From: Cristatella mucedo | Lineage: Eukaryota; Bryozoa; Phylactolaemata; Cristatellidae | Reading direction: 5' to 3' | NCBI GenBank assembly: GCA_009760855.2 | Contig: WPIO01000090.1 | Span: 1,375,001-1,439,000 of the forward strand | Length of the DNA stretch: 64,000 bases | In this document: positions 1,429 to 63,819 of the stretch, one piece after another | How the letters are laid out: each line of letters starts with the position of its first letter | Position numbering within the stretch: the stretch's first letter is position 1 | Position numbers and translations under genes: made by a program | The notes under the pieces: generated by a model | Databases searched by the model: none | Seen by the model: only the letters and a program-made list of their open reading frames with translations | Told to the model about the DNA's origin: nothing

Positions 1429-12927
<11,499 letters not shown>

Positions 12928-35394: not shown

Positions 35395-38300
35395 GGGCAC
35401 ATGTTGAGACATATACACGCATACACAAGCAGACACGCCCGAGCACGCCCCCAACACACACCGAAGGCTCGAGAACCAAAGCCTTCAGCAGCAGCAGCAA
35501 TGCAGCAGCAGGTGCCAGCAGCCGGAGCAGCAGCTTCGAGCGCTTTCGGTAGAACCACGCACCAGTTGCAGCTCCTCCGAGCAATGTCCGGCATAGGTAG
35601 GCGTCGAGGCGGCTGCGCCACATGCAGCCGCGCCACTGCCATCGGGTGGGTAGCTCGGGGAGCCGATGCCGAGCCCCAACAGCTGACGCAGCAGCTGCCA
35701 CAGGCTGGGGAACAGCTGCTGGGCATGGCGAGGCGGCTGGCGAGGAAGAGGAGAAAGAGTGGCTGCATCGTCGCCGGCTGAAAGTGAAAAAGAGAGCATC
35801 GTCAGCCGCAGCACGATAAGCGACAGCACGCCGCTTGCGCTCCGCTCCTGCTTTGCACGCTGGCAGACAGGCACGCCGGAAGACGAAGCCGAGCGTCAGC
35901 CTCAGCAGCACCCACCTGGACGGCTCAGCTCGACGGCTCGCCTCAGTGCCGCCATGCGAGCGGAGTTGTGCTGCGAGCGAAGCAGCGCTATTGCGACGTC
36001 CTCGGTAGCCCGCTCGTCGGCGCCGCCGCAAGGGTGCGAGGCGAGCAGCAGCAGCGCCTCGGCAGCGGACTCCACTGCTGCCTCGCGCCCGACCGTCTGG
36101 CTCGGCAGAGGAGCGGCAAGGCTGGGACGAGCCACAGAAGCAGCAGCAGCCGCCACGGATGCCTGCTGGTCGCAGTCGTCAGCGCTCAGCTGCACCATGG
36201 CGGCCACCTTTGCGCTGGAGGCGAGACACTGCACGGTGGATGCATCAGCCAGCTGACTGGGCTGACCGACCATCAGCACAAGCCGAACCAGGTCGAAATA
36301 GGCCGCCGCCAAGATGGGACACCTACCAAACAGGTGCAGGCATAGGTTCGACAAGGCGAGTTGGCGCTATCGTCGCGCCACTGCGGAAGCTTGCATTTGC
36401 TGTGCCACCGCAGCCGAACAGTCCACGGGCCTCGGCGCGCAACGATTGACAAGAGGGCTATGCTGCGATCGCGCAGCCGGCGATTAATCGGCCGGTCTAG
36501 ATCCCCCCCCCCCCCCCCCCCCCGCAGCATTGCCGTGGAGTCATCGGCTGAGGCCAGAAATTGCAGGCGTCCGGCCAGGCGTATGGATTGATGGGCCCAC
36601 TGGACAGGTCTCGATAACAACATGGCTGGTGTGCTTCTAGACGGACTAGATTGGCCAATTAGCCAAGCAGCAGACCAATCGCTAACCGGCTGGCTGCTCA
36701 CACAAGGCCGGCAGACTGAAATGACGTCTGCTGAACTGACAGGAGATTCAACTAAAGGAAAAATTGTTGCTAAGCAGCTAGTTGAACATATTGAAAATAA
36801 TGGAATGTCAGAAACATTTCAATCGGGGTTCAAGAGGCAGCACTCTACTGAAACTGCTCTCCTCCGTGTTAACAATGACATTCTACGTAGCAACGACGAC
36901 GGGAATGTCACTGCCCTAGCTCTGCTAGATCTGTCTGCTGCCTTCGATACCATTGATCACGAAGTTCTGCTTGAACGATTGAGAACAACGATCGGTCTGG
37001 CAGACGAAGCACTGGCATGGTTTAAATCATACTTGTCTGATCGTGTTCAATCCGTGTCGTGTGGGGGTCAGGTCTCAGACATGAGAAGGGTCACCTGTGG
37101 AGTCCCTCAAGGGTCTGTACTCGGTCCCTTGCTGTTCTCCATTTATATGCAACCTCTGGGAAAAGTGATTAAGGCCCATGGAATAGGATATCACTTCTAT
37201 GCTGACGATACTCAGTTGTATTTGTCATTTAAACCGTCGGAATCTGCTGCAGCAACTGAGAAACTGAATGCTTGCCTTGCCGATATTCGATCCTGGATGT
37301 CGGAAAACTTGCTGAAATTAAATGACGATAAAACCGAACTGCTGCTCATAGGACACCCTAAGCATGTGGCTGGAGTAAAAGGCTTTGCTGTTCTAATAGG
37401 TGATGCTATTGTGCGACCTTCACCACGTGCTCGTAATCTAGGTGTCGTGTTCGACAGCTGCCTCAATTTCAAAAGCTTTATTCAGAAGACTGCCTCTACA
37501 GCTAGCCATCACATCCGATCCTTATCCAAGATTAGAAGCTGTCTCCCACTGTGGCTTGTAAAAAAATTAACTAGCTCTTTAGTTCTGTCTCGGCTTGATT
37601 ATTGTAATTCCCTTTTGGCTGGGCTACCAAAGAAAGCTATTATGCCACTACAGCTGACTATGAATATGGCTGCAAGGCTGGTCTTCAAGTCCCAGCAGTT
37701 TGAGCACGTGTCACCTCTGCTGAAAGAGCTAGGATGGTTGCCGGTTGAGCAAAGGATACAGAGCAAAGTTCTTACGCTGACCCACAAGGCCCTATACGGC
37801 TTGGCTCCTTCGTACCTAGCTGAACTGCTGCATCAGTTTCAGCCTGTTTGCGTCCTCAGGTCCTGTGTGGACAATAAATTAGCTGGCCCATTCCTCCACT
37901 TAAAGACAGTTGGCGACAGAAGCTTTAGCTTTAGCTCTGCAGGTCCTAGACTGTGGAACTCGCTTCCACAATTCTTACGCAACGACAACTATTCTCCTAC
38001 TGCCGACTATGGCACATCATTTTCAGCGGTCCTGAGCTGCTACTTCTATGCTACTCACTACCTCAACTGCTCTCCTGACTCTGCTATGCTTCCCACTTTC
38101 TCTTTGTTGCGTGAGACGAAGTCTGTTGGCTACCGAATGCGTACCGAAAGCCTCTTAGGCTGTGAGTGCGCTATACAAAACTCTCCTGCGTAACACCACA
38201 TGGTCTTTATGACTTTGTGGAGTTACAGACGGAGATACATTACATACATATACAGACATTGTGGGCTGTAACAAAACAGGCTAAAATCAGACCGCATGAG

Positions 38301-40773
38301 TCAGTAGATCCATTTTTTAAAGGTAGTGATATCTTCAAGAATTTTGCAACATTTATTGCCAACTAGCAACACATTTCCACCCACTGATAGATATGTGGCA
38401 CGAGAATAACATGCACGCCCAGTATATAAATACTTCTGCATCTAAACAGCTACAAAATACCAGGAGAGAAACGCTGCAGTGAAAGTGATAGTGAAAGGGG
38501 GTTGTTAACACTGCTGCCCCAACAAGGCAATCCAAGTAATCTTGAGATTAGACCGTGTCTTTAGTTTGCGTGCACCCAGGGCAGGGAACTCACTCCGGAC
38601 TGACGTCACCACATACCCTGCTTTGCCGAACTTTAGAAAGAAGCTTAACACCCATCTGCCTCTCCTTACGTTTGCTGGATCCATGTGAATTGTCCTGTGT
38701 ATGCAAAAAATGCATGCTGACACAGTGCATGTTATCACTAAGCAATTGACATGCATCCTTTACAGCATGAGTGAAGTGCTTAGAAAGAGATTTATTTCTT
38801 GTGAGGTGCCAATCAAATATCTTGCTAAAATGTTCTTACTATTACCAGCCGGCAGCACTTTGTGTCTTACGGTGTGCTTTTGCTTGAGCTTCGCAAAAGT
38901 CTTATTATTGCTATTATTATAATTACAAGCTTTTTCCAACTTAACCAATGTGAATGCGAGCAGGTTGAGGGAAAATAAAATGTAATGTATCTCCGTCGGT
39001 AACTCCGCAAAGTCATAAAGACCAGGTGGGCGTTACGCAGGAGAGTTTTGTATAGCGCACTCACAGCCTAAGCAGCTTTCGGTACGCATTCGGTAGCCAA
39101 CAGACTTCGTCTCACGCAACAAAGAGAAAGTGGGAAGCATAGCAGAGTCAGGAGAGTAGTTGAGGTAGTGAGTAGCATAGAAGTAGCAGTTCAGGACCGC
39201 TGAAAATGATGTGCCATAGTCGGCAGTCGGAGAGTAGATGTCGTTGCGTAAGAATTATGGAAGCCAGTTCCACAGTCTAGGACCTGCAGAGCTAAAGCTT
39301 CTGTCGCCAACTGTCTTTAAGTGGAGGAGTGGGACAGCTAATTTATTGTCCACACAGGACCTGAGGACGCAAACAGGCTGACACTGGTGCAGCAGTTCAG
39401 CTAGGTACGAAGGAGCCAAGCCGTGGCGGGCCTTGTGGGTCAGCGTAAGAACTTTGCTCTGTATCCTTTGCTCAACCGGCAACCATCCTAGCTCTTTCAG
39501 CAAAGGTGACACGTGCTCAAACCGCTGGGACTTGAAGACCAGCCTTGCAGTCATATTCATAGTCAGCTGTAGTGGCATAATAGCTTTCTTTGGTAGCCCA
39601 GCCAAAAGGGAATTACAATAATCAAGCCGAGACAGAACTAAAGAGCTAGTTAAATTTTTTACAAGCCACAGTGGGAGACAGCTTCTAATCTTGGATAGGG
39701 ATCGGATGTGATGGCTAGCTGTAGAGGCAGTCTTCTGAATGAAGCTTTTGAAATTGAGGCAGCTGTCGAACACGACACCTAGATTACGAGCACGTGGTAA
39801 AGGTCGCACAATAGCATCACCTATTAGAACGGCAAAGCCTTTTACTCCAGCCACATGCTTAGGGTGTCCTATGAGAAGCAGTTCGGAAGCTAGCCTGAGC
39901 CAGAGGACTACGTCAGCTTCAGGAGCTCTCGGTATTGGTCATGCCAGCAAGAATGCCAAGGCACGCGCACACAGACGACACACCCGCCCCTGTGCACCCA
40001 CACATGATCGCATGCTCGCTCACACACAACACACGGGCATCAGCCAGCAGGCAGAAAGCTACCCTTCCCCCTAAAGACCGTCGGCTTTCCTAGCTCACCG
40101 AAAAGTGCCAAAGCTACTCGAAACCTGCAAAATAAACAAGATTCATCCGAGCATGTGCAATGCTCCTGCTGCTGCAATGCACACCTCGATATGAGCCCAT
40201 TAGGACTCAGCGGCCCGCCGCATGACAGAGAGAGCGCGGTCACTGAGAGCAGCTCCGAATTCGATGCCGATGCGCAGCTTGCCGACGACTTGACGAGTTG
40301 CTGCAGCTGCAACAAAAGAAGAAAAGGCCGCCGGATGCGTCCGGCTTGCGCACACGCTTCCGGTTGCCTCTGTGAGCTGGGAAGTGCTGCGCAGGCAGAG
40401 CAGCAAAACTCGGTTTCGGCTGGCTGTGTACGGCACGGCCTGCTCACCGCCAGTAGCACGCCGTGAGTGAGATTGGCTGGCGCGCGGCACTCTGGGGCGT
40501 TCGAGGCATCGTAGCCATCCAGAGGTCCGTCGCCCAGATCTGAACCGGCTGCCGCCAGCAGGTGGTCGAGCAGGCGCAGGGCGAGCGGCAGCAGCGAGTC
40601 CGCAGGGACGAGCCGGGCGAACACGCGGGCGCTCAGCAGACGAGCTTTGTGCACCGGGCTGCCGAGACACCTAGGAAGGAGAAAAAGGAGAACCTGCAGA
40701 CATGCGGCAAGAGCGGCTGGGAATATCTGACAATGCTTTAGCCAATTTACTTTCACTTCTCGTCTGCATACTA

Positions 40774-43800: not shown

Positions 43801-46800
43801 TATCTCCATCTGAGCGGTGACATTACCAACTTATTATTATTAGCTATTAAAAAGCAAACAGATGAGCTATGCAGACATAAGAAAGCACAAACCTCAAAAT
43901 AGGCTCGGTTAGCAGGTCTCCTGGAGCCTGCCACGAGACTGCCCTGTCCCAAATCTGTCAAGAAAACCCAAGACATATGTGGGGCATGAATCTGGAAAAT
44001 GATTGCCAAAAGGCCAACTGAGTAAGGATCAGGGGAGGCGTGGGAGCTCTCTTGCCCACTTGCACAAAAACATCTGAGCAGAATCAACATTTAAAGAAAA
44101 AAATTATCTCAGAAGCAAATTTAACAACGCATGCAACCTATAGCCAATAAACAGGTGCCACGACTGCGTACTTACTCAAACAATGCCCGAATAAATGGCT
44201 CCAGCGGTGCACAACCACCACTGGACAAAGAGCGTGCAGATTTGCCTGCTACTACTGGATTAGCCATGGATGCAGGGATTGGCTGCTGCCCGTGCAGAAA
44301 GCTCGTCAGTCGATCGAGAGCCCACGAATGCTCGTTTTGCAAGTCATCTGCACTCATCCCACGGCTGTCGTCGTCCACAGGCGAAGGATACAGCTTGCCA
44401 AGAATTAGCAGCGTCAAATACAAGCCGGGCTGCAGCAACGCCTCGCCGGAGTCACTGCCAAACAGAAGACAACTTGACAACATGACATAAAAAGGCTACA
44501 CGAGAGTGATACCGTGGCAAATTCCTAGGTGGCAGAACAACTGATACTGCTAATAAAAGACCAAATGCAAAACTGTCAAATCAACCCGAGATATATCGAA
44601 GACCTAGCATAAAAGGCAAACCAAAGATCAGCAAGTACACTCACTCACAGGACAGCATAAGTGCACCAAAGCTGCTAGCTAAGATGTGTTCCAACTCAGC
44701 GAAGCCTAATTATAAAGGTGGGGGGGGGGGGTTCCCTGAACTAATCACGGAGACTGCAAAGCCGATTTTGAGCATCAAGCTTTCACATTTCTGAGTCACA
44801 CCATTTTTCCCCATAACTAGGTATTGTGTGTTATCGTCATGTAATTTAATGAAGTTTTCTGCCATCGAAGTGCGAGTGTCAGTAATAAGCCCATCAAGGA
44901 AGTTGAGGTTGTTTGATGTGGTAGACGGCATAGGTGTGACATCGGCATATGAAGTGAATCTCGTAGGGATCAAGACATCGCTATGTCATCGGCATAGAAG
45001 TCAACACCTAATTTGTGCTTGGCTATAAACGGGACTTAGCAAGGCTGCAATTGCTAAACAATGTGAATTGGCGAGCCTTCAGTAATGTACAGCCATACGA
45101 AGATGGCTACTACTGCCTATATGATCGATAATGCTAAGAGACTCGGCCGCCCACAGGCCACTGCAGCCCCAAGGACAGGCAGATAAAGATCAAAGCTTTA
45201 ACCACCATTTAACCCCTACAAGGCTTCATACTCAAATGATATGTTTCTTCTACAGCAGTAGTTCTCAATATTCTTAATGCAGCGACCCTTTAATACAGTT
45301 CCTCATGGTGTGGCAACCCCAACCATACAATTTTTTTCGTTGCTATCTCATAGCTGGAAATTTGCTACTATGAATCATAATGTGAATATCTGATATGCAG
45401 GTTATATTTTCAATGTTACAAATAGAACATAATTAAAGCATAGTGATTACTCATAAAAAACAATATCGGTTCCTAAGACCTTCGGAAAATGCGTTTTCTT
45501 AGGTGACCCCTGTGAAAGGGTCGTTCGATCCCCAAAGGGGTAATGACACGACTCACAGGTTGAGAACCACTGCTCTAAGGCATATGTGAAGTGCATAAAT
45601 AGAGATCTAGTCCTCCGACGGTGATATCTACGTATTGGTATAATATTATTAGTATTCTTATTAGGCCTGACGGCTGCAACTGGGAATCTAGTTGGGAGGG
45701 ACACAATCAGGACTCGACTAGCCGAGCAAGGTGCGTTTGCTCGAAACGAGATAAAGAAAAGCCTAAAAGTTCTGTACATGTAAAGCATCAAGTAGCTCGT
45801 TGGAAGTGAGCTAGAACAAGAGCTGGTGTAAAATCGAATGAGGCATAGATTCAAGTTCATTTCACACTAGAACGTCACAGTACTCAGTACAATAAGCCTA
45901 AGTGAAGGTACTTTTTGGTTCAAACATGTGGGCAACGAGTCTAAGCATCCAGCTCAGTGTGTCGAATGTTTTCCCCAGCAACATCGCTGCATTCAACTTA
46001 AGGCCATTGCGCTAAAGGAGTGGCCAAATAAATATTGAGACCCGAATCCTATTGAGTGTTTATGGGGCGAAGTGGATACAAGGCTAAGAGCTAAGGGGGT
46101 TGCATTACATCTGAAGAAACTCTTCTCTCAAGTTTGCCTATTGCTCGGAGAGCGATAAGTCTTAGTCTGCTCTGTACCCGAGCTGCTCAGACATTGCTAA
46201 TTGCGGTGGTAAAACATTAAAACACAAACCATTTCATAATACTAGTGATAATAATGCACTTGATAAAGCACCCTCAGAGAACTCTATCTCTTTCTAGGTG
46301 CTTTGCATTTGATGCATAGGGAAACGCGATTGAATGGTGAGTAATATCATGCTTGATAAACAACATGAATAACATGGTTAGGGGTGATATGCAAAGGGTC
46401 AGCATGCAAATGTGGCAATAGTGGCAGCATGCACAGTGTCAGCACGCATAAGCACGTGAAGGACGAATCACAGGGACCCACTAAATGCTGTCCTAAATAG
46501 GTGTTTTTTAAAGTTCTTTTTAAATGTGGTCAAGTCAGGAGGTGTCGTGACGCAAGTCGGGAGGGAGTTCCATGCTTTGGGAGCATACAAACTAAATGCA
46601 TGGTCTCCAAAGGATTTGAGGTTTGTACGAGGTATTGGTAAACTGTTGGATTCCGAAAAGCGGGTGGTACGATGCTTGGCCTGGTGGGGGAGTAGATCTG
46701 AGAAGTTGATCTCATGAGTGCAGCGGCAGGGCGGTCTAGAGGCAATTCCTGTTACTCTACAAAGCCACAAAGACTAAGTGGGTGTAACACAGACGAGTTG

Positions 46801-49800: not shown

Positions 49801-52800
49801 TCACGAGCACGAGACGATGGCAGCACCGAGGTGTCACCAATTAGAAGAGCAGTTCCTTATTACAGCAGCTCTACGTTTACGGTATCACACGAGTAGTTTA
49901 CCAACGTTTTGGTTAAGGAAATGGGCTGACATCGCTTAGCTTAAGCAAATGGACAGGTATCCAGAATTTAACATCTACTAAGCAGACATCAAGTCAGTCA
50001 CGTCAGCTGATTCAGATGGTTTAAATGACAATTACAGCTACTTACTGCCAGCCCTGAGGTTATAGTCGACACCATGGGTTAGCGGGTTAGCATCATTTTC
50101 ACGAGAGATCGTACAAACTGAGAACAGCAACAGAGGGCTAAGAACTACTTAAAGGTTGAACTCCAAAGGTGAGACAGACCTGATGGATGAGACTTGGCCC
50201 CCACACGACGTGAGTTCGGTAAAACCTATCAGGGGGCCAAATTATGACAATGGATCGGCCTGCTGACACGACAAGGCAAAGTAGGCGAACCTAGGAAAGT
50301 GCCTGTGCATTTAGCTGATGGAATGGGAGCTGATTAGTGGCCGATGGGTTGTCATACTGGGGCCCCACGGACAGGCAGAAAAATTAGGTCGACGTGGTCT
50401 CGTGTATGTACAAAATGATTCAGGAAGAGCAAAGCAACGGCAGTAGGACACCGGTCCGGCTAACAATAAGTTCCTTTGAGTATTTGTGAGGTAAGATCTG
50501 GGGTAACAAAAATCATGATTCTGGGAATATGGTTCTCTAACAACGTGAGCAATTTCAAGGTCACAAGTTCTTCTAGAGTGCCTCTCATCTCGCCTGGGCA
50601 TCACTGGCACTGCTCTGCAACGGTTCAGGTCCTTTCTCAGTGGGAGTATTGACGTGAATGGACAAAGATCATCCGAGGTACTTCTGAAAAATGGGGTACC
50701 TCTAGGCTCCGTGCTAGGTCCACTTCTTTTCACGGTTTATAATCTCCCTCTTGTTGATGTGATTAGCAAACAATCTAGGCTTTCACTTCTATGTTGATGA
50801 CAATCAGTTATACCTTTGCTTTGATCCCTTCGAGCGTGTCGAATTCTCTCAACTCTCTTGCTGCATGTATTGATGACATCTGCACATAAATGGCAGCAAA
50901 TTTTGTTAAACTAAACAACGATAAAACTAACTTACTAGTTATGGGCAAACCCAGAGTGATTCAGAGATTGGAAAGGCTGACTCAAAATTGGCTCTGCCAG
51001 CATATCTCCTGTTGAATCAGCTCGAAATCTAGGTGTCATGTTCCAAAGTGATCTCTCATTAGACGACCATATCAGCTCCACAGTCAAATCTGCCTATTTT
51101 CAGCTTCACAACTTTGCTAAAATTAGGGCTTGTTTAGATAAGGATACCACGTCTAAGTTGGTCCATGCATTTGTGACATCCCGTCTTGACTTCTGTAACT
51201 CACTGCTTGCTGTCTTACCGGCAGGTGTGATCAGGCGCTTAGAGCTGGTGCAAAACTCGGCAGCGAGGCTTGTCTGTCGCGAGTGTCACAGTTGCCACAT
51301 CACACCACTTCTCGCCGACCTGCACTGGCTACCAGTCAAGCAACGGATCGACTTCAGGGTTCTGTCACTCACTTGTAGGTCCCTTCATTCTTTGGCTCCA
51401 GTCTATCTATCACAACTTCTCCCCCGTCAGGCAAAGCATCGTACCACCCGCTTTTCGGAAACTGTTTATCTATACCTCGTACATATCTCAAATCCTCTGG
51501 AGACCTCGCATTTTATTTTTACGCTCCCAATGGGTGAAACTCCCATCTTGCGTCACAAAATCTCTTGAATTGACCACATTTAAAAAGAACTTAAAAACGC
51601 ACCTATTTAGGACAGCATTCGGTGGGTCCCCGTGATTCGTCCTTTATGTGCTTATGCATGCTCACATTGTGCATTCTACAACTAACATTTGTTGCATGCT
51701 GACCCTATGCATGTCACCCCTAACCATGTTGTTTTTGTTATCAAGCATGCTACCACTTACCATTCGATCGCGCTTTCCTTTGCAGCAAATGTAAAGCGCT
51801 TAGAAAGAGATTGAGTTCTATGAGGGCGCTTTACCAAGTGCATCATTATCATTATTATTTTTATTATTGTTTGCATCTCTAGCCGCTACATCCATTGGCA
51901 GGAGTATCAAAATAGCTTTGCAGACCCAATTTGGCCTACACCCGACAGAGCGATGAGACATATTATACACAGTTGTGGCTTACAGGTTTCGATTTGGTGC
52001 TCAAGTTCGGCAGGCTCTAACGCGAGTTCTGCTATATGTGTTCTGTGAATTTCCTATACAGCAAATGTAAAGCGCCTAGAAAGAGATTGAGTTCTCTGAG
52101 GGAGCTTTATCAAGTGTATTATTATTATTACACAGAGCAACAATTAAAAGTTACCAACCAGTACAAAGAAATTCAATACACAAACTTTATGCAGTAAGAA
52201 CCTAACGACACCATTACGATCCCTAAGCAAATGGTGCTAGAAAGGATGAGTGACTGAGAAATGGCAATTTCCTTACCATCCAGTGCCGGTCCTGGTAGCC
52301 ACAAACTGCAGCCTCAATGCCAGCAGAGACGAACGGCAGTACTCTCTTGCCGAGCTGATTATTGAGAAATGCCACTCTAAGAACATTGAGGGCATGCACC
52401 TTCTGCTGCATGCTGACGGGAGACTCCAGGCCATCACTATGTTTATGCAGAGTATCTGCAATCGCAAGAAAGCATGCTTCCTAGTGAGCGTGCACCAAGA
52501 AAACAAGATCCAGTTTGTTAAAACCGAATAATCAGTAGCAGCCACTCACTCAATTCCCGACCTTCACCTGCAGGTGAATTCACGTGCAATGCAGCGTCTG
52601 CACTCCTCCCATTCACGTGCCCAACAAGACTAGTAACTCTATATATATATATATAGATTCAAGTTCAGATTTCATTCGTGTACAACTAGCTTGACCATTG
52701 CCTATATGAGCATATCACTGATGAGCTAACTGCACAGCAAGCATACCAAGCAAATGGTTGGCTAACCCCATTAGACAGGTCCATAAAGGTCTCAACTCTG

Positions 52801-55230
52801 GGGTTCCCCCGAAAACTACAGCCTCTCTATCGAAACTCAGCGTTTGGATGCGGGGATAAACGCAGTAACATAGGATGTCAAATTGTGTTGCCATTAGTAG
52901 AGTTCCATCTTTGTCTAAAGTCAACCAGTTGTCAATCAATTGATTTAACGGCCTCATTGATAAACCCGGTGGAAGAGCAATAACAGCTATTACGCCACTT
53001 GCAGCTGGCAACAAAATATTGCCTGCTGAAGGATGTGAACCCACGACCTGGGTCGTAAAATGCAAGCTCCCTGTAACGAATTAGGTCATATAAATTCTAG
53101 CCATTGTGCCAGTGATCCGATCAACTACTTTGAGGACAACCAAGTCTTTAGACAGCAGTGCTGTCAACATGTACAGGCAAACAAGGCGGCACTGTTTGTC
53201 GGCACTGGGAGGTCGAAAGAGAGATTCTGCAAAGCTACAAACTAAACCAACTGTGACTAAAAAAGCCTTTTGGCACCAACAAGTGCTCAGGCAGCCCTAC
53301 TACCAGATACCAGGCAGAAAAACTATGGGCGAAAGTGCCCCATAGTGCCTTCGGTCTTCTTCAGCTCCACGATAAGCATGAGTGCCAATGTAATGACACG
53401 GCTGCCAAGTCATCAAAAGGTAACAGCAACAACGCAAGTCGAGATAGTAGGACTTATCACTTTTTCTCACTTCAACATGCTCACTCCACCAGCTGGAACC
53501 AGTAGGAGTGGAGCTGTACCTACAAGTCGCTAGCCGTGCTTTCAAGGCTTAATGATTCACTGGTACTTGTCATGCATCGGCAAAGACTAGCAGCCTTATG
53601 AGCGCTGTGCTCACGACTTTGCTCTGACTGGACACAGAGAAGACTCTACACCTCTGTGTAACACTGCCTTCTTCACATAATCACCATTCATGCACTTCAC
53701 ATACAACCTCAGAATAAGGTCTTGCAGGAAAATCTAGAACCAAAGCGTCTCAAGAAAAACAGCTGAATGCATTCAAACCAGGCCTGCACAAACGACCTGT
53801 TTGCATGCATGCCGAAAAGCTTATTCGAGGTAGTCAATTCCTGTATGCAGACACATATGTGAGGCATCATTAGAAAATGAGAACTAATCATGAAGAACAC
53901 CAAGCATGCGAGTTGGTGCAGCAGATTTGAAGGATATAAAGTTCGCCAGTCTTGCCCAGATTGCTAACCAAGAATCTCACCACTGTAAATATCAAGCGAG
54001 TTAGCAACGGTACACCACGTCAATCACGGTGTGAATGTATCACAAACAAGGTAATCTTCTGCACCAACTTCTACTTTTGTGAGAACGACGGGGAACAGAC
54101 AGAATGATGCAGTAGAATTAAGCAAAGACAGATCTTAAGAAATATTTCTTAGGCTTCCCGACAAAAAGCACGAAATTGACAGTTTTCAAGCGACACAGGA
54201 TCCTCAGAGCAACTAAATTCACACTTCATCAAGTGGTTCGCCAAGGAATCCAAGGTGAAAATCCAAGTATTGCTTGTAAATAGCGACAGATGGCCGGACT
54301 CCTCTCACAACCCAACATTCAACAAATACCCTGTGGACAACAACAACAGGGCACACTGAGGGACAAACCATCGAGATATAATAATGTCAACAGCTTAGCA
54401 AGATGTTAAACTTTCGAGTTCTTGCAGCTGAAAGCAAGAGAGGCTCTGCTCGGCTATGTGGCAGAAAATTAGGAGGCCCCCCCCCCCCGATGGTTCTGCT
54501 CCGTTGGAACTACTTTTGCGCTGTCGGCTGCCAACGATTGGTCAAACATTCACACCTCCAAATTGCATAAATGTCTACAAGAACAGCTTGCCCTGCACCG
54601 ACTTTCTGCACAGAATGCATGCGACTGTCACCATGACAGCAGGCTATTCTGATGGACAAGGTCACCGTACTTACTGTCCTCTCTCTACCTTTGATATCGC
54701 AATTGCAAAAGGCTTGCGCCAGATACGATCTCTGCAGTTGGGCAGAAGATCTAGGCAGAAATCACAGCATAATAAGCTTAGTAAATTGACCGGAACACCG
54801 TGTCGGTCTTCATCGCCTGCCAGCCAGCAGCACTTACCAGCTGCACCGGGCATAGCAGCAGGCTCATCGTCTGCTGTACGGCTTCTGGCGACTCGCAGCA
54901 GAATGCTCATCACACCGTTAAGGCCATGCTCGGAGCCCACGTCGGGCGGCTGGGTCACGAGGTAGGCGAGCACTGCATACGGCAGCCCGGCACTACGGCG
55001 CGTCGAGCACGCCTCGCTGGCGAGCTTCGGGTCCAGCACCACCAAGATTGGCGATCGCTCGCCAGTAAAAAACCGCCGACAGAGGTCGCTGGCTGGCAAG
55101 CGCCTGCAAGGGAAACAAGGCACTACTCGATTGGTCCATACTTGCCGGTCACGGGCAACCAACTATTGGCAAACTGCTCACGACTTCCGGTTAGTGCAAC
55201 GCTCGGCGCAGAGAGTTAGAGAGAGTGAGT

Positions 55231-58300: not shown

Positions 58301-61300
58301 GGCCTCGACCAGACGCGACAGGAAGTCGGCGCGGAGCAAGCTCACGCTCGCTGGTGGCGCATTGCTACAAGACGATCGACCGGCCTCTGCAGAAGCCGCC
58401 GCTGCTGCTGCTGCTACTGCGCCAAGCATGCTGGGAAGACTGGCGCTCGCTAGACAACGGCGTTCGACACCTACTGAGGCCGTGGCATCGGCAGTGAGCT
58501 ACTGTCCCGACCGACGCCTGCTTCCGACGCCGGCGCGTGACGTCTCGTCTTGGCAGCCACCGAAGCACAGCCGAGGCCGAGAGCAACGACCTCGCGGATG
58601 CACAGGATGGCCGGGTAGAGCTGCTGCCCGCCTCCGCCGAGCGCCGACGTCAAGTCACTCCGGGCACGGGCGATCTGGCGCAGCAGCACGTCCAGCAGCC
58701 AGTCGACCACTGCTGCAGCAGCGCCGCCTGGCACTGGCGGCGCCGCTGCAGCAGGAGGGGCGGCGGTGGCAGAGGCGGCCTCGAAGCCACGCTCAGTCAG
58801 CTGCACGAACAGCTTCACGAGGGACGCGGCCGTGGCCGCGTCGCCGACGTCGCTGCCCTCGAGCAGCGATCGAGCCCGATCCCAGACAATGCCCGGAAGG
58901 AGGGCTGCAAACTAGGAAAATGGGATACTGTTAGGCGGGCTGCCGAAGCCTCACGACTGTGGCCAATCAAGGCAGCGCTGCCTGCAGAGACCAGCAGCAT
59001 CAGCGGGTGCGTCGCATGCTGCAGGGTGCGTCAGAAGCACTGGCTAAGAAGCCCTTCTTAATAAGGATAAATTGGCTTGGCAGCAACAGTCTCATCAATC
59101 GGTTTACCGAGACACTACAAACCGCACGCCATCGACTGCAACAGAAGGAAGTGAGGGTAGGAAACATACTGCCTCAGTGATGCCACAGTGTGGCATGGCG
59201 ACGTCTTCCAGGCCGAGCAGGAGCAGCCGGGCAGCTGCAGCACGGTTTTGCTCGTAAGTGTCACAGAGGCAGGCCAGCAGACAGGCAGCAGATGAGTCGG
59301 TAATGAGCTCAGTTATTGAGAAGAGGTTTGCTGAATCGGCTGTGCCTAGCAAAGAAATGGTAGTGCAAAAGCAATAGGTTTAAACCCTTTTCAAGAGAGC
59401 CTTGCACCGAGAAAAACTACCTTCACAGCAGCAGTGGCCAGTGTGTGCATGTGTTTGAACTGGCACGGCAATGCTCTAAATTTGTCCAAACAAACGTGTG
59501 GAATGTCAGTCTTTCAATCAACTTTAGCTGACAAGGCTTCACTGAATGAAGCCGACATATAGGTGAGCACGTAATGACAACAGAAACAAAGTTAACTGAG
59601 ACAGCTTTAACAAACAACGTTAACACAAATGCCCTTGTTCCTGGCTTCTGGGACTGGCTAATAGGAAGTGAGGCAGCTTGCAATCCTAGAAGCAAGTCTT
59701 GAAGAGCTAATATCTTCATTTTACACAATGATTTGGGAGGGAGAGCTCGACAGATATTGTGGGCAAAATCTTTGATTGCACATCACGTGTATGCAATAAC
59801 CTCTCTCTCCTACTAGATCTGAAAGAAAATTCTACAAGGTCACGACATCCCCTGATTTGACAACATTTAAAAGAAGCTAAACACACATCTATTTATCATA
59901 GCAGTTAGAGGGTTCACGTGCTCAGTCTTTTGTGTGCTTCTGCGTGCAGACACTGTGCATGCTGCCACTAACCATATTTGCATGCTGATACTGTGCGTGC
60001 AACCTCTAACCATGCTATGCTTGGCGTCATCGAGCATGCTAACACTAACCATTCGATCACGCTTATTTTGCTGCTAATGTGAAGAGATTGAGTTATCCGA
60101 GAGCTATAAAAATCTATTATTTTTTATTAATGGATACATATATAATATAGCCATCGACCACAGTTATGTCGAGAACTACATATAGTAGATTAGTCAGAGG
60201 CTAATTGATTAAGGGCTGCGTTTGACCGTGTAGACGAAAGCAGTTGGGCCGCTAACAGGCAAGCAAGCTCAGGGTCGATGGCAGTCAGCCTGCTTCCGGT
60301 GTCCGTAAACCCTTCGAAAGATCGGTTACCTACTCGTAACATTTGAGTACGTGGTGGCAGGCGGGCGCACTACGCACGTGTGCATGCACATCCACACGTG
60401 CTTGAGAGTGTGCGCACGAACAGACAGACAGACGAGATGCTGACACTGTAGCAGGGTGTTAGGGAAGGAAGGTTTCATTTCATGTCCTCTAGCCCCTGGC
60501 TTCCATGCAGCCCCTGGCTAGCCTCTGACCTTCCGTCGCACAACTCATCATCTTATCCAGCGACGCTGCTAAGATCGATTACCCCAATCGCCAGGCTAAT
60601 CGACCGGTCGGTAAACCAAGCTGACACGCCCTTGCTGATGCTAAAAGTGGATTGACAGTCCAGCTGAAACAGCCGAAAACAGGGACCATGGTATAAGACC
60701 TTCGAGGGAGGAGCAGCTGAATGCACTGCAACAGTGCACTTACCAGTCGCAGTGGACGAATGCGTGGGAGCAGGCGATCGCCGTGAGATCGGCGGAAATG
60801 CCTCGGCCACAAGATCCAGCAGCTCCAGTGCTACCGTTCGCAGAGCATACGGAGTGTCGATTCCGTGCAGCCTATCCAGCTGCTGACGGCCCAGTGACAA
60901 CAAAAACGCCTGCAGCAACCAAGCCAGTGTACCGCGCATTGCCTGTCTTACTCAGTTCGATCACTGGCCCAAAAAGCCAAGAGGCAGTCAAGAGGGTGAT
61001 GGCGCTATCGGATGCAAAAATACATCAAAATGTCTTGGAGTGGTGATGTTTGGCGATTTCTGCTGCCTAAATTTGAAATTGGGCAGCAGGTAGGAATGGC
61101 TGCCCAGAAGCTTCTATCGACTAACAGAGAGCAAGACCGACTTCTAATCATAAGCAGCATCCTCAGTTCTGCTATTACGACACAAAATCTTTAAACAGTA
61201 CAACATATAAACAAAACAAAACAGGGCCACAAATAGAAAAATATGTTTCATTTGTATATGCTCTAAGAGAACTTAATCTCTATCCATGAGCTTTACATAT

Positions 61301-63083: not shown

Positions 63084-63819
63084 CTTCCTCGACTGCCCTC
63101 AGCTCTGCCTAACGTCGTATCTTTGCTGTGTGAGATGTAGTGTGTTGGCTACCACATGTGTGCCAAAAGATGCTCGGTCCTTGAGAGCATGCTACGAAGA
63201 ACTCTCCTGCATAACGCCCACTTAGTCTCCGTGACTTTGTGGAGTTGCAGACGAAGATACGTTGCATGCTAGGTGCCGAAAATCGACACGATAGTGTCAA
63301 TTAGTGGTGCATGCACGCCCAAGTGTCAATTAGTGGTCTGAATCAGCCAGGAACTTAACCAAAATAAATCACTTCAATAAGGCGGCTAGTTATCAAAATC
63401 GAAGAAAAATCAAGCCATTAAAACGAACGATCATTCGTTTATCTGGCGTTATTTTTCTCATGATTTAGTCACTAATTTCGATTACAATTTAACCAGACAA
63501 TGAATGTGGGCTTCGTAGAGAAGCAACTGGAATACAAGCAGCTTACCCGGTAGCATTCTGACAGCGCATTAGAGCCGGCGGCAGTGGTGGTACCGCCGCC
63601 GTCAGCGTGGCCACCAGCGGAGGCACGATGTCCGACGAAGCTGAGTCGGCAGCGCTGCAGCACCTTCTTCGTGACAGCACATACAGCCTGCCGATAGGCG
63701 GGCGACTCGTGGCCGGCCGAATAGTGCAGGAAGGCCAACAAAAGGTCAAGGTCGTCGGCCGACACAGGGCTGGATGCTCGCCGGTCGTCGCACAGGAGGT
63801 TAAACGTGGCCAGGCGCAG
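21498..63819 (-). CDS. THADA: THADA, tRNA (32-2'-O)-methyltransferase regulator (22 exons, N-terminus outside window)
   Basis: Twenty-two minus-strand exons join in a consistent phase series into 1619 codons plus a stop; the largest part of a protein of nearly 2000 residues in humans. Family landmarks run in order: RLATFNLLCDD; RHVVVCCWRAAKEIALLFG and RHRGAFEIAFTGYAEVW; STRRSAGLPYAVLAYLV; QKVHALNVLRVAFLNNQLG; VRSSATLLFSALIQRVFGVK; SPVHKARLLSARVFARLV. The middle block is the DUF2428 region. THADA, like yeast Trm732, is an armadillo/HEAT-type cytoplasmic protein that partners the FTSJ1/Trm7 methyltransferase for 2'-O-methylation at anticodon-loop position 32; it is also linked to SERCA and energy balance in flies. 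No internal stop or frameshift was needed. Low-complexity Ala, Gly and Ser insertions are frequent. One junction (58512/58386) is uncertain. The N-terminal exons lie right of 64000. Confidence 0.93.
22098..24041 (-). other. THADA intron 21
   Basis: It holds AT-rich repeats at 22232-22345 and a LINE-B 3' fragment at 23095-23460. The rest shows nothing recognisable. Confidence 0.7.
23095..23460 (+). mobile_element. LINE-B 3' fragment
   Basis: It contains AACCTCAAATCCTTTGAAGA (ORF2 end), the GCATGCTGCCACTAACCATA 3' UTR block, and the tail AAAGCGCCTAGAAAGAGTTT ending before an ATT repeat. It is antisense to THADA. Confidence 0.85.
24042..24274 (-). CDS. THADA: THADA exon 21
   Basis: The acceptor GCCTAG|TA (phase 1) and donor TGTCAG|GTGAGTC (phase 0) bound 233 nt. 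It reads QSEMMVDYVVGHVACELLAA, an Ala/Arg linker, then FRVCEALLGQLVALHRLLVQ. It corresponds to the Q.D.S.AL.L...LCDLL helices near the THADA C-terminus. Confidence 0.82.
24588..24818 (-). CDS. THADA: THADA exon 20, with internal inverted repeat
   Basis: The acceptor CGCGCAG|AC and donor GGTGCAG|GTAAGG (both phase 1) bound 231 nt. WCLARLLLDASSSVRRDAAA matches the W...L.LL.S....VRDAA helix pair of THADA. The following QRLLEQDCGRPQSCSSK is encoded by a perfect 20-bp inverted repeat (24623-24666), which looks like a lineage-specific insertion kept in frame. Confidence 0.87.
24623..24666. repeat. Perfect 20-bp inverted repeat, 4-nt loop, inside THADA coding exon
   Basis: The left arm TTGCTGGAGCAGGACTGCGG (24623-24642), loop CCGC and exact complement (24647-24666) form the palindrome. 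The arms and loop lie wholly inside exon 20 and are translated. The GC-rich stem would be very stable in the mRNA. Confidence 0.95.
24819..26218 (-). other. THADA intron 19
   Basis: It contains (CA)n and CA-rich degenerate repeats (25012-25206) and ATA/ACA-rich simple sequence (25946-26005). Nothing else was recognised. Confidence 0.7.
26219..26390 (-). CDS. THADA: THADA exon 19
   Basis: The acceptor GCGGGCAG|CTG (phase 0) and donor CACGTG|GTGAGTC (phase 1) bound 172 nt. It encodes LVACSCGYSDLISTIEQLAE then ETRRQAVACLLEACPLPPS. This aligns with the QLV..C....PTESRLAVVEVL segment of vertebrate THADA. Confidence 0.87.
26587..26757 (-). CDS. THADA: THADA exon 18
   Basis: The acceptor CGTTTCAG|GTC and donor GAGGAG|GTGAGC are both phase 0, giving 57 codons. 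It reads VARQLGAMCASGLRG, an Asp/Ser linker, then ESTVAYLARLWACLLRHWHE. It matches ALRLASKV...L....L..WV.L in the family. Confidence 0.85.
27160..27430 (+). mobile_element. Two adjacent LINE-B 3' ends
   Basis: The first copy shows an ORF2 remnant TTAAAAACGCACCTG joined directly to the tail (AAAGCGCCTAGAAGGAGATT, ATTATT end at about 27258), so its 3' UTR is deleted. The second (27260-27430) has a diverged 3' UTR and tail ending in ATTATTATT. Confidence 0.8.
28215..28830. mobile_element. LINE-B 3' ends facing each other
   Basis: A plus-strand copy (28215-28500) runs from TTTAGGACAGCATTTAGTGG through the tail AAAGCGCCTAGAAAGAGATT to ATTATT. A minus-strand tail (28725-28830) follows after 225 bp, in inverted orientation. 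Confidence 0.85.
29255..29400 (-). mobile_element. LINE-A 3' end
   Basis: The reverse complement matches the last 130 bp of LINE-A almost exactly and ends in (TTACA)n, seen here as TGTAATGTAATGTAATG at 29263-29280. Confidence 0.85.
30069..30166. repeat. (TG)n microsatellite
   Basis: About 48 TG units with two CG interruptions lie in THADA intron 17. Confidence 0.97.
30905..30979 (-). CDS. THADA: THADA exon 17 (75 nt)
   Basis: This short exon was found by its splice sites: CCTTCTCAG|GTG and GCCATTGTG|GTGAGT, both phase 0, giving 25 codons. VSQAILHYVMLHGLKLIENT then DEAIV joins directly to VARQLGAM in exon 18. The joined stretch aligns with the FLIWTMDIASNE...VALRLASKV segment of vertebrate THADA. 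Confidence 0.85.
33776..33929 (-). mobile_element. tRNA-derived SINE with LINE-B-like tail, best copy
   Basis: On the minus strand it reads TGGTCTAGCGGTTAAGGTGC (A box), then GGTCGTAGGCTCGAGCCC (B box), then a tail GTGAAGCGCCTGAATAAAGA, AGTTCTCTTGGGGTGCTATA and (ATTT)n. The tail corresponds base by base, with drift, to the LINE-B 3' end. The head resembles a tRNA with a long first stem region, but mismatches in the anticodon arm rule out a functional tRNA. Confidence 0.85.
34035..34650 (+). mobile_element. Two LINE-B 3' ends
   Basis: The first (about 34040-34140) is only the tail plus (ATT)n and is nearly identical to other young tails. The second (about 34440-34650) is an older copy that includes the 3' UTR (CCTCCCAGCATTTGCTGGGT onward) and ends in (ATT)n. 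Confidence 0.8.
35331..35394. repeat. (CA)n microsatellite
   Basis: This is an interrupted (CA)n about 170 bp downstream of THADA exon 16 in transcript order. Confidence 0.93.
35563..35777 (-). CDS. THADA: THADA exon 16
   Basis: The acceptor CACTTTCAG|CC (phase 1) and donor CAACTG|GTGCGT (phase 0) bound 215 nt. It encodes HAQQLFPSLWQLLRQLLGLG and a Gly/Ala/Ser-rich rest. It occupies the place of the KFLLLA...CF.KILKIL segment. Sequence similarity is low and the donor is not ideal; the identity rests on phase and order. Confidence 0.65.
35916..36322 (-). CDS. THADA: THADA exon 15
   Basis: The acceptor GTTTGGTAG|G (phase 2) and donor CGTCCAG|GTGGGT (phase 1) bound 407 nt. CPILAAAYFDLVRLVLMVGQ corresponds to NPCLVTRAVYIDILFLLT of THADA. 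After a long Ala/Ser-rich insertion come ALLLLASHPC and VAIALLRSQHNSARMAALRR, matching SFSQLLESAFPEVRSLTLEAL. Confidence 0.88.
36503..36523. repeat. Homopolymer C21
   Basis: There are twenty-one consecutive C residues. The length is prone to sequencing error. Confidence 0.9.
36750..38265 (+). mobile_element. LINE-A (CR1/Rex-like non-LTR retrotransposon), 5' truncated, open RT frame
   Basis: A frame open to the stop at 38191-38193 encodes most of the reverse transcriptase: KIVAKQLVEHIE and FKRQHSTETAL, motif A LLDLSAAFDTIDHE, motif B GVPQGSVLGPLLF, catalytic FYADDTQLYL (about 37193-37222), LKLNDDKTELLL, and the C-terminal LSRLDYCNSLLAGLP and GPRLWNSLPQFLR blocks. The endonuclease half and the 5' end are missing, as usual for target-primed insertions. 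The 3' end is GTTACAGACGGAGATACATT plus ACAT units. It lies antisense to THADA in one intron. An intact frame and few differences from other copies suggest a young insertion. Confidence 0.92.
38540..38840 (+). mobile_element. LINE-B 3' fragment, diverged
   Basis: It runs from GGGAACTCACTCCGGACTGA (ORF2 end), through a TGCATGCTGACACAGTGCAT 3' UTR, to a tail AGTGCTTAGAAAGAGATTTA with loss of the terminal repeat. Confidence 0.75.
38982..39884 (-). mobile_element. LINE-A, 5' truncated copy in inverted orientation
   Basis: The reverse complement encodes VKGFAVLIGDAIVRPLPRAR through GPRLWNWLP with very few differences from 36750-38265 over the shared 0.9 kb, ending in the same GGAGATACATT end. The 5' break lies in the ELLLIG motif. 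With the upstream copy it makes a tail-to-tail inverted repeat separated by about 0.7 kb. Confidence 0.92.
40185..40306 (-). CDS. THADA: THADA exon 14
   Basis: The acceptor TTTTGTTGCAG|CTG (phase 0) and donor ATATCGAG|GTGTGC (phase 2) bound 122 nt. LQQLVKSSASCASASNSELL follows HGVLLA of exon 13, matching HGTLLQVFHLLQ...S..H.L. A second CAG six bases on could serve as an alternative acceptor. Confidence 0.85.
40448..40670 (-). CDS. THADA: THADA exon 13
   Basis: The acceptor TCCTTCCTAG|G (phase 2) and donor CTGGCG|GTGAGC (phase 0) bound 223 nt. CLGSPVHKARLLSARVFARL and LPLALRLLDHLLA then APANLTHGVLLA match C.HSPVYHSREMAARALVPF...NHIHGTLLQ. It is one of the best conserved segments. Confidence 0.93.
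40671..44175 (-). other. THADA intron 12
   Basis: Apart from (AT)n at 40779-40825, no repeat family or conserved exon was recognised in 3.5 kb. Confidence 0.65.
40779..40825. repeat. (AT)n microsatellite
   Basis: About 23 uninterrupted units lie 110 bp upstream of THADA exon 13 in transcript order. Confidence 0.95.
44176..44454 (-). CDS. THADA: THADA exon 12
   Basis: The acceptor CTGTTTGGCAG|T and perfect donor TTTGA|GTAAGT (both phase 2) bound 279 nt. ALLQPGLYLTLLILGKLYPS and CAPLEPFIRALFE match the PSMFLLLLVLERLYASP...FVPFI segments. Between them is an insertion of roughly 45 residues (Asp/Ser-rich). Confidence 0.92.
45256..45572. mobile_element. Non-autonomous hAT element, OposCharlie1/SPIN-like, 317 bp
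   Basis: The terminal inverted repeats are CAGTAGTTCTCAA (left) and, in complement, CAGTGGTTCTCAA (right). Flanking 8-mers TTCTACAG and CTCTAAGG share five of eight positions and fit a degraded nTCTAGAn-type hAT target duplication. Internal landmarks are GCGACCCTTTAATACAGTTC, GTGAATATCTGATATGCAGG and GGGTCGTTCGATCCCCAAAG. As I recall them, these match the vertebrate OposCharlie1 (OC1) non-autonomous consensus over its whole length. No transposase is present. It lies in THADA intron 11, inside an older LINE-B-type tail (CATATGTGAAGTGCATAAAT follows). The family match is from memory, not a search. Confidence 0.88.
46230..46720 (-). mobile_element. LINE-B 3' part
   Basis: The reverse complement encodes the ORF2 end (HQAKHRTTRFSESNSL, then KAWNSLPTCVTT...TTFKK.FKKHLFR), followed by the CATGCTGCC 3' UTR and the conserved tail. 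It is in the sense orientation of THADA, unlike most LINE-B copies. Confidence 0.88.
46745..46890 (-). mobile_element. LINE-A 3' end, diverged
   Basis: The reverse complement carries the CGCAACAAAGAGAAAGTGGG-like and GTAACTC.ACAAAG landmarks of the LINE-A 3' end, with more differences than the copy at 38982. It directly follows the LINE-B copy. Confidence 0.7.
48510..48599 (-). CDS. THADA: THADA exon 11 (90 nt)
   Basis: The acceptor TGAATCCAG|C and donor CCTCG|GTGACC (both phase 2) link exons 10 and 12 in frame. The peptide LPPRTAVLDPARRNRLLAVL occupies the place of REFFSRFPELYPFLLKQL. Direct similarity is weak, so the main support is that both neighbours are phase 2. Confidence 0.6.
48775..48866 (-). 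CDS. THADA: THADA exon 10
   Basis: The acceptor CTATTGAAG|GTA (phase 0) and donor AACGG|GTAGGT (phase 2) bound 92 nt. VRSSATLLFSALIQRVFGVK then CSKDDLAKRNG matches AVRNSSTLLFSALITRIFGVKRAKDE nearly residue for residue. Confidence 0.95.
49200..49880 (-). mobile_element. LINE-A, diverged copy
   Basis: The reverse complement follows the LINE-A C-terminal ORF2 order (CACGAGC start, the CTTTCAGCAAAGG.GACACG block and the AGCAGGAGAGCAGATGTCG block), with frameshifts and deletions. It is an old copy. Confidence 0.7.
50565..51870 (+). mobile_element. LINE-B, longest copy, decayed reverse transcriptase
   Basis: The plus strand shows RLGITGTALQRFRSFLSGSI, motif B changed to GVPLGSVLGPLLF, motif C as HFYVDDNQLYLCF after a frameshift, RNLGVMFQSDLSLDDHI, TSRLDFCNSLLAVLP and LADLHWLPVKQRIDFRVLSL. 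The 3' UTR and tail AAAGCGCTTAGAAAGAGATT plus ATT repeats follow. The Gln-to-Leu change in motif B and the frameshifts mark it inactive. It defines the link between the common tail and a CR1/Rex-type LINE. Confidence 0.9.
52010..52130 (+). mobile_element. LINE-B tail
   Basis: CAGCAAATGTAAAGCGCCTA, AGAAAGAGATTGAGTTCTCT and (ATT)n are present, lying 140 bp from THADA exon 9. Confidence 0.85.
52277..52455 (-). CDS. THADA: THADA exon 9
   Basis: The acceptor GCGATTGCAG|AT (phase 1) and donor TGGATG|GTAAGG (phase 0) bound 179 nt. After a variable start come QKVHALNVLRVAFLNNQLGK and GIEAAVCGYQDRHWM, matching QVHALNILRALFRDTRLGE...GAKAAILGFTS..WA. This is the most diagnostic THADA segment. Confidence 0.96.
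52456..54837 (-). other. THADA intron 8
   Basis: It contains a tRNA-like relic at about 53025-53110 (B-box-like AGGTCGTGGGTTCACATCC on the minus strand), a short (AT)n near 52640 and a C10 run near 54479. The rest was not recognised. Confidence 0.6.
54838..55103 (-). CDS. THADA: THADA exon 8 (DUF2428 end)
   Basis: The acceptor TTTCCCTTGCAG|G (phase 2) and perfect donor GCAGCTG|GTAAGT (phase 1) bound 266 nt. It encodes DLCRRFF, then LDPKLASEACSTRRSAGLPY and AVLAYLVTQPPD, matching LCATRRSAGIPFYIQALLASEP. The CSTRRSAGLP core is a family signature. Confidence 0.95.
55236..55306. repeat. (AG)n microsatellite
   Basis: About 35 units are preceded by GAGTGAGTGAGTGAG. The tract lies 130 bp downstream of exon 8's acceptor side, in intron 7. 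Confidence 0.95.
55635..56325 (+). mobile_element. LINE-A, 5' truncated, diverged
   Basis: The plus strand reads SRWLAKNLTSTLVLSRLDYC then NSLLAGLSK followed by a stop, then further matching frames up to the GTTACAGACAGAGATACATA end. Several frameshifts are present. Confidence 0.88.
56569..56681 (-). CDS. THADA: THADA exon 7
   Basis: The acceptor CAATTTAG|GTC (phase 0) and donor TGGCG|GTAGGT (phase 2) bound 113 nt. GPIEEFFTDILANARHRGAF and EIAFTGYAEVW match VKEIGDYFKQHLLQSRHRGAFELAYTGF. Confidence 0.95.
56682..57871 (-). other. THADA intron 6, nothing recognised
   Basis: This is 1.2 kb without recognisable repeat family, microsatellite or exon. Confidence 0.6.
57872..58056 (-). CDS. THADA: THADA exon 6 (DUF2428 start)
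   Basis: The acceptor ACTTTGCTAG|AA (phase 1) and donor CAGCTG|GTGTGT (phase 0) bound 185 nt. WPRHVVVCCWRAAKEIALLF then GLLAKEA matches MVLVCCWRSMKEVALLLGML. The CCWR.KE motif is a family hallmark. Confidence 0.95.
58228..58386 (-). CDS. THADA: THADA exon 5
   Basis: LLRADFLSRLVEACKDTYSL then VAPVVCHSSPEGYELET matches the VSEW.PVVEKLLL.CYRLS.VVSPVIQSSSPEG segment. The start is uncertain: CTGCAG|AG at 58386 fits phase 1, while a stronger-looking CTTGTAG|C lies at 58364 (phase 2). The donor ACCG|GTTGGT is weak but joins in phase to exon 6. Confidence 0.8.
58512..58911 (-). CDS. THADA: THADA exon 4
   Basis: The acceptor TTTCCTAG|TTT (phase 0) opens a frame reading GIVWDRARSLLEGSDVGDAA, TAASLVKLFVQLTERG, an Ala/Pro linker, WLLDVLLRQIARARSDLTSA and QQLYPAILCIREVVALGL. 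It corresponds to YDCVTASYLLNFLI..., VKCLMENLEEE and AFPMYGRVHCITGAL. The left end is chosen at GTCG|GTCGGG only because its phase fits exon 5; an in-frame TAG follows, so some donor must be used before about 58490. Confidence 0.8.
59170..59345 (-). CDS. THADA: THADA exon 3
   Basis: The acceptor TCTTTGCTAG|GC (phase 1) and strong donor GAGGCA|GTATGT (phase 0) bound 176 nt. It encodes ANLFSITELITDSSAACLLA then CLCDTYEQNRAAAARLLLLG. This is the L..CL.D.YE.NK..A..LLL helical repeat of the THADA N-terminal half. Confidence 0.9.
59346..60743 (-). other. THADA intron 2
   Basis: A LINE-B 3' fragment occupies 59830-60130 on the plus strand. Nothing else was recognised. Confidence 0.7.
59830..60130 (+). 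mobile_element. LINE-B 3' fragment
   Basis: It carries the ORF2 end (CATCCCCTGATTTGACAACA), the GCATGCTGCCACTAACCATA 3' UTR and a partial tail ending in ATTATTTTTTATTAA. Confidence 0.8.
60744..60942 (-). CDS. THADA: THADA exon 2
   Basis: The acceptor AAGACAG|GCA (phase 0) and donor GACTG|GTAAGT (phase 1) bound 199 nt. It reads LAWLLQAFLLSLGRQQLDRL then PYALRTVALELLDLVAEAFP. It matches FMSSVCENLFDALFPGSSY.TRFSALTILGSIAEVF. Confidence 0.9.
61258..61363 (-). mobile_element. tRNA-derived SINE, internally deleted
   Basis: The minus strand shows the A-box-like GATAAGGTGCTCACC, a shortened middle, then a LINE-B-like tail GTAAAGCTCATGGATAGAGA and TTAAGTTCTCTTAGAGC. It is most like the copy at 17900-18011. 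Confidence 0.75.
62555..62955 (+). mobile_element. Two partial LINE-A copies in tandem
   Basis: A diverged piece (62555-62665, CTAGACTATGGAACTTACTG onward) is interrupted by a near-intact copy (62667-62952, GTGGAGCTCGCTTCCACAAT onward). The second starts at the same point of the element's ORF2 and ends at GTGGAGTTACAGAC. Confidence 0.85.
62953..63079. repeat. (CATA)n microsatellite seeded at a LINE-A 3' end
   Basis: About 20 pure ACAT units at 62998-63076 are preceded by CATG/CATA variants. They continue directly from the LINE-A terminal GATACAT. Confidence 0.95.
63085..63270 (+). mobile_element. LINE-A 3' end, diverged
   Basis: CTCGACTGCCCTCAGCTCTG and GTGACTTTGTGGAGTTGCAG match the LINE-A 3' end beyond the (CATA)n block, ending GAAGATACGTTGCATG. 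Confidence 0.8.
63547..63819 (-). CDS. THADA: THADA exon 1 (first visible)
   Basis: The acceptor CTCGTTGTAG|CTG and donor TACCGG|GTAAGC are both phase 0, giving 91 codons. LRLATFNLLCDDRRASSPVS then ADDLDLLLAFLHY and SPAYRQAVCAVTKKVLQR match VRLATLGLLCE...LV..FL.YNINSQSPSVRQQICSLLKKLF. A stop codon lies in frame just upstream of the acceptor, confirming a splice. Earlier exons lie right of the window. Confidence 0.93.

Follow-up and report, generated by a model that had tools for sequence, protein, structure and literature searches.

How did a freshwater bryozoan come to hold, inside one of its own genes, a short transposable element that looks like those of tetrapods? The question is raised by a non-autonomous hAT element (MITE) at 45256..45572, plus strand, of the Cristatella mucedo window, by which we mean the whole 64,000-nucleotide stretch analysed, on contig C677 of the host assembly. 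An earlier note, made from the sequence alone, had recognised the element, assigned it to the OposCharlie1 (OC1) family and proposed that it arrived by horizontal transfer. We find that the best overall explanation, and in our view a very probable one, is that the element is a dead copy of SPIN, founded in this bryozoan by horizontal transfer.

The element and its insertion site

The element is 317 bp long, reads in the orientation of a 321-bp family consensus and aligns to that consensus end to end. Its inverted-repeat arms (45251-45268 and 45560-45577) are 18 nt long and 89% complementary, which confirms both the length and the hAT terminal inverted repeats that had been proposed. Within these arms, the 5′ terminal inverted repeat occupies 45256..45268 on the plus strand (CAGTAGTTCTCAA in the window copy, CAGTGGTTCTCAA in the consensus) and the 3′ terminal inverted repeat occupies 45560..45572 on the minus strand (TTGAGAACCACTG in the window copy, TTGAGAACCGCTG in the consensus). 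Chance inverted repeats were considered as a source of the element's ends and rejected.

The flanking 8-mers, TTCTACAG at 45248..45255 and CTCTAAGG at 45573..45580, are alike at 5 of 8 positions, as in a decayed target-site duplication, for which this agreement, taken singly, is weak support. The degenerate 8-bp duplications described in the earlier note are nevertheless borne out across the copies of the family. Of the 40 copies, 25 match to within two bases of both element ends, and their paired 8-bp flanks share on average 6.32 of 8 bases, compared with 3.75 in shuffled pairs (2000 shuffles, maximum 4.64). These flanks follow the motif nTCTAGnn, and the TA at its centre hardly varies: 43 of the 50 flanks have T as the fourth base and 47 have A as the fifth. 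The Buster-type target site, nnnTAnnn, has its TA in this central place too.

The element sits between exons of a THADA/Trm732-like host gene on the minus strand. One exon, at 63475..63819, matches Pfam PF25150 (TPR_Trm732; 32.1 bits, above the cut-off of 27), and a probable C-terminal exon at 40043..40777 matches PF25151 below the same cut-off (E 0.00058, 20.2 bits). Pfam returned no family for three minus-strand frames between those exons (52718-53080, 58474-58911 and 60556-60951), and Rfam at its gathering threshold returned none in the window. Elsewhere in the window, a reverse transcriptase frame of a non-LTR-type retrotransposon (RVT_1) lies at 36592-38190 on the plus strand, and a piece that by eye is closely similar to it runs in the opposite direction at 39255-39938 (minus strand). 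A PAS-domain exon at 6882-7550 (minus strand; PAS_9 above cut-off) is presumably part of a potassium channel of the ether-a-go-go type.

Copies in the host genome

The host assembly comprises 572,011,866 bases in 688 contigs. A DNA search of it with the window copy gave 1822 first-look candidates, of which only the 40 likest the window copy were scored; these are 75-86% identical to it. The 321-bp consensus was built from the 40 aligned copies and is unchanged when the window copy is omitted. The mean Kimura two-parameter (K2P) divergence of the copies from the consensus is 0.100 (sd 0.025, 40 copies), a value that is probably too low and understates the family's age since the scored copies are the ones nearest to the window copy. 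At the marsupial rate of PMC3621081 (3.21e-9), a divergence of 10% would correspond to about 31 My, as a rough guide. The window copy itself differs from the consensus by 8.1% (K2P 0.085). Over the 780 pairs of copies the mean difference is 0.18, about twice the copy-to-consensus mean, which points to a star-like pattern of the kind left by a single burst. Changed cells relative to the consensus number 167 of 1078 at CpG sites, 427 of 3901 at other C or G sites and 612 of 7034 at A or T sites.

Another hAT family in the same genome (loci L052-L081) presents a different picture of its own. An identical score is shared by 55 of 138 PF05699 matches in the genome, all 29 of the other fetched loci are at least 99.0% identical to L063 in the main piece (1.3-2.2 kb), and many of the loci keep long open frames. 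That family is very young and may still be active.

A full-length relative with a broken transposase

Two partial copies, L040 and L047, continue into other sequence at about consensus position 205. When extended, L040 proved to be a 3110-bp element (positions 4833-7942 of locus L050), the ends of which are 89% identical to consensus positions 1-205 and 91% identical to positions 213-321, and which is flanked by a perfect ATCTAAAT target-site duplication. Because the long and short forms have the same ends, the short form is an internally deleted version of the long one, in which about 205 bp from one end meets about 109 bp from the other. The long form carries a hAT transposase, on the strand opposite to the orientation of the short form, that is broken by stops and frame shifts.

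When 72 of 905 own-genome candidates were scored for the transposase, SPIN-like sequence was found at four places, with pieces 45-80% identical to a snake protein, and the remaining matches shown were no more than 33% identical. Each of the four places carries stops or shifts. No Pfam family was found in the query joined from the L050 pieces; its relatives carry PF14291, PF27073 and PF27046. As with SPIN elsewhere, short copies outnumber transposase copies, here by 40 to 4 places among the scored matches. SPIN is 2.9 kb at full length, compared with 3110 bp for the bryozoan full-length copy. Given the ends and target motif common to the two forms, we infer that the SPIN transposase mobilised the short one in trans.

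Probable assignment to SPIN

The family is also present in mouse. A stretch of mouse Adh5 printed in the available part of PMC8376875, where the gene is named FDH, aligns over 96 bp to consensus positions 1-96 with 81% identity (E 5e-21); the alignment scores 85.4 bits, whereas the same stretch shuffled 200 times never exceeded 26.8 bits. Four published mouse primers also match the consensus (Ate1 R1 at 18/20, Ate1 R2 at 18/20, Kcnq1ot1 R at 19/20 and Kcnq1ot1 F at 15/20), with scores that shuffled primers reached 0, 0, 0 and 2 times in 4000, respectively, whereas eight other primers of the same papers (PMC2767504, PMC2837401 and PMC6221546) score 10-13. This mouse DNA was found by a text search with words of the element, 3 of 18 of which matched, in four papers. 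Selection therefore affects Ate1 R1, Kcnq1ot1 R and 15 of the Adh5 bases; it does not affect Ate1 R2, Kcnq1ot1 F or the remainder of the 96-position Adh5 alignment. The Kcnq1ot1 R and F primers face each other inside one element. A practical observation is that published genotyping and RT-PCR primers for mouse Ate1 and Kcnq1ot1 fall within a repeated SPIN-type element.

A putative SPIN stretch agrees with the consensus at 218 of 222 aligned sites, though it was written out after the consensus was known. SPIN is recorded in galago, murine rodents, opossum, tenrec and vesper bats at 15-46 My in the available text of PMC5857283, and table 1 of PMC3621081 includes no rodent among the hosts of OC1. 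Since the family occurs in mouse, where SPIN and not OC1 is recorded, the OC1 label looks wrong, and from host range we infer that the family is SPIN (SPACE INVADERS). The bryozoan family further resembles tetrapod SPIN in having a transposase near the tetrapod consensus and an 8-bp duplication; it differs in that its host belongs to a phylum apparently new to the family.

The competing assignment, that the element is OC1 and was horizontally transferred likewise, has in its favour that the OC1 transposase, also of hAT type, is 602 aa long and that the hosts of OC1 include tetrapods, a triatomine bug and a planarian (available text of PMC3621081); many intact relatives of the bryozoan transposase are 596-614 aa long (listed lengths 346-1010). 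The mouse copies speak against it, as does the presence of rodent proteins in the same transposase clade as the bryozoan row, and we regard it as improbable. According to the same source, OC1 too belongs to the hAT superfamily, has crossed phyla and has produced short non-autonomous derivatives. The deletion points of the OC1_Das short form are 36 and 2337 of 2571, those of the bryozoan short form about 205 and 109 from the ends, and OC1 invasions are tabled there at 2.2-10.5% divergence, compared with 10% for the bryozoan family. Of the earlier proposal, the claim that an invertebrate harbours a non-autonomous element from a tetrapod hAT family stands, as the transposase and the printed mouse DNA indicate, and the name OC1 probably does not.

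Transposase relationships

With the L050 transposase as query (pieces joined by hand and linked with X), 524 proteins were found at E ≤1e-20 (7990 candidates scored, 120 listed). Over the full query, the joined transposase is 71% identical to a Protobothrops protein, 70% to one of slow loris and 69% to one of Bufo. Among the 120 listed, all named rows above 46% are from tetrapods (snakes, geckos, anoles, frogs, toads, bats, slow loris and rodents) except for one tunicate, Clavelina lepadiformis, at 62%. The listed rows that cover at least 94% of the query drop from 57% to 46% identity with none between, and the weaker relatives listed include Hydra and sea spider. As is characteristic of SPIN, the transposase is close across tetrapod hosts and far from other hATs.

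The hand-joined bryozoan copy agrees with a 15-row tetrapod consensus at 450 of 565 sites (79.6%). A founder identical to the tetrapod consensus and decayed at 10% of nucleotides, which is about the divergence at the element's own ends, is expected to agree at 80.1 ± 1.6%. Automatic reading of the copies gave lower figures than the hand-joined one, namely 455/594 (76.6%) for L050 and 442/589 (75.0%), 309/479 (64.5%) and 169/233 (72.5%) for the three other copies, which suggests heavier decay or wrong framing in those three and a founder that was maybe nearer to 92% than to 100%. At least two of the four bryozoan copies agree with each other at 505 of 608 positions, and at 465 of those 505 (92.1%) the residue is that of the tetrapod consensus. 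The single rows behind that consensus match the bryozoan residue at 80-89% of the 505 sites, and rodent rows match it at 77-81%. The sequences thus suggest a founder transposase about 92% identical, or closer, to the tetrapod consensus.

In a midpoint-rooted tree of 37 rows (the bryozoan row plus 36 that we chose from the 120 listed proteins), the bryozoan row falls inside a 21-row clade (support 100/99) in which 19 of the 20 other rows are named tetrapods, rodent ZBED8-like and related proteins among them. Two frogs lie outside this clade. Within it, the bryozoan row is tied to bats and loris, a weak placement (85/78, 88/70) on a long branch (0.27).

The Clavelina protein (P0282) shares 62% of residues with the decayed copy of the bryozoan and 77% with the snake protein, and its row falls just outside the tetrapod clade; perhaps it represents another entry of a SPIN-like transposase into an invertebrate. 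Pattern searches of viral sequences and genome contigs, and blastn against plasmids and phages, found no vertebrate relatives of the element's DNA.

The host lineage

The host is a phylactolaemate (freshwater) bryozoan: its nad5 protein is 74% identical to that of Pectinatella magnifica and at most 53% identical to the other named rows among the 120 listed, with one further row at 67%. Between Pectinatella nad5 and five rows from annelids and molluscs, identity is 49-51%. The host could not be placed by COI, which is too conserved, the listed named rows (mainly molluscs, plus two nemerteans, an annelid and insects) being 81-85% identical and one further row 96%. According to the available text of PMC9653232, Cristatella and Pectinatella split about 247 Ma and bryozoans originated about 603 Ma.

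The mitochondrial genes lie on a 21-kb contig, C688, and were read with code 5; cox2 and nad2 were not recognised among its frames of at least 85 aa. This contig has an exact 2119-bp tandem duplication before nad1, plus other repeats (L015-L017). There is also a recent nuclear copy of mitochondrial DNA (L010, C166:4374126-4377890), 96-97% identical over about 3.7 kb. Since C166 is a 5.6-Mb contig, this copy ties a bryozoan-like mitochondrion to the nuclear assembly.

Origin of the element

Horizontal transfer, as the earlier note had argued, appears by far the best reading of these sequences: a founder about 92% identical, or closer, to the tetrapod consensus, a bryozoan row nested among tetrapods and other resident relatives at no more than 33% all point to it. 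The closeness of the founder can be set against nad5, a constrained protein that is nonetheless only 74% identical to Pectinatella and at most 53% identical to the other named rows listed. Vertical descent from the common ancestor of bryozoans and tetrapods might draw on the distant transposase relatives that are common in the same genome and on the weaker relatives in Hydra and sea spider. Against it, the copies are broken and decaying, yet at 92.1% of the 505 sites on which at least two of them agree they still show the tetrapod residue, and bryozoans arose about 603 Ma (PMC9653232, available text). Vertical descent also fits neither the drop among the own-genome matches shown, from 45-80% to 33% or less, nor the nesting of the bryozoan row within tetrapods; we give it almost no credence.

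Contamination of the assembly with vertebrate DNA would account for a transposase near tetrapod proteins, but the copies are spread over many contigs of up to 24.8 Mb and differ in their flanks and in their decay, the window copy lies between host exons, and the assembly holds the bryozoan-like mitochondrial copy described above, so that this explanation too is extremely unlikely. A transfer in the reverse direction, from a bryozoan or other aquatic invertebrate to vertebrates with invertebrates as the reservoir, deserves more consideration. It is favoured by a SPIN-like hAT in the freshwater snail Biomphalaria (available text of PMC5440852) and by the position of the tunicate protein just outside the tetrapod clade. 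The bryozoan row, however, lies inside that clade and is not basal, even if its exact place is weakly supported, and we consider this direction unlikely, though less so than the other alternatives.

We therefore prefer horizontal transfer into the bryozoan, with direction and carrier as follows. A full-length SPIN would have entered the germ line horizontally, either from tetrapods or via a carrier common to them. Its transposase would have recognised the terminal repeats and cut and pasted the complete element, along with a short derivative left by deletion, into nTCTAGnn-type sites, duplicating 8 bp at each insertion. A burst would then have multiplied the short form, after which the transposase genes broke, and the copies would have been decaying since.

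Implications for the spread of SPIN

A literature search on SPIN or OC1, horizontal transfer and Bryozoa, in which subscription papers were thinly covered, found no report of either element in a bryozoan. The SPIN family itself is known, and as far as the literature searched shows, Bryozoa appears to be a new host phylum for it. The nearest parallel is the SPIN-like hAT of Biomphalaria glabrata, likewise in a freshwater lophotrochozoan host but of another phylum, where about 1000 copies are reported (available text of PMC5440852). SPIN elements are also reported in Rhodnius (PMC11614815, in its available text).

Because the host lives attached, filters its food and takes no blood, the question of the carrier becomes a testable one. 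We suggest, tentatively and with more doubt than conviction, that the spread of SPIN used a water-borne route that reached the bryozoan without blood-feeding contact. Candidate carriers are parasites common to vertebrates and phylactolaemates, such as the myxozoans that alternate between fish and bryozoans, and a candidate route is the passage of phylactolaemate resting stages through waterbirds. As far as the literature searched shows, the finding extends to a further phylum what is among the widest horizontal spreads of a transposon known and, if a water-borne route is true, fresh water would be a mixing ground linking the snail, planarian, frog and bryozoan cases.
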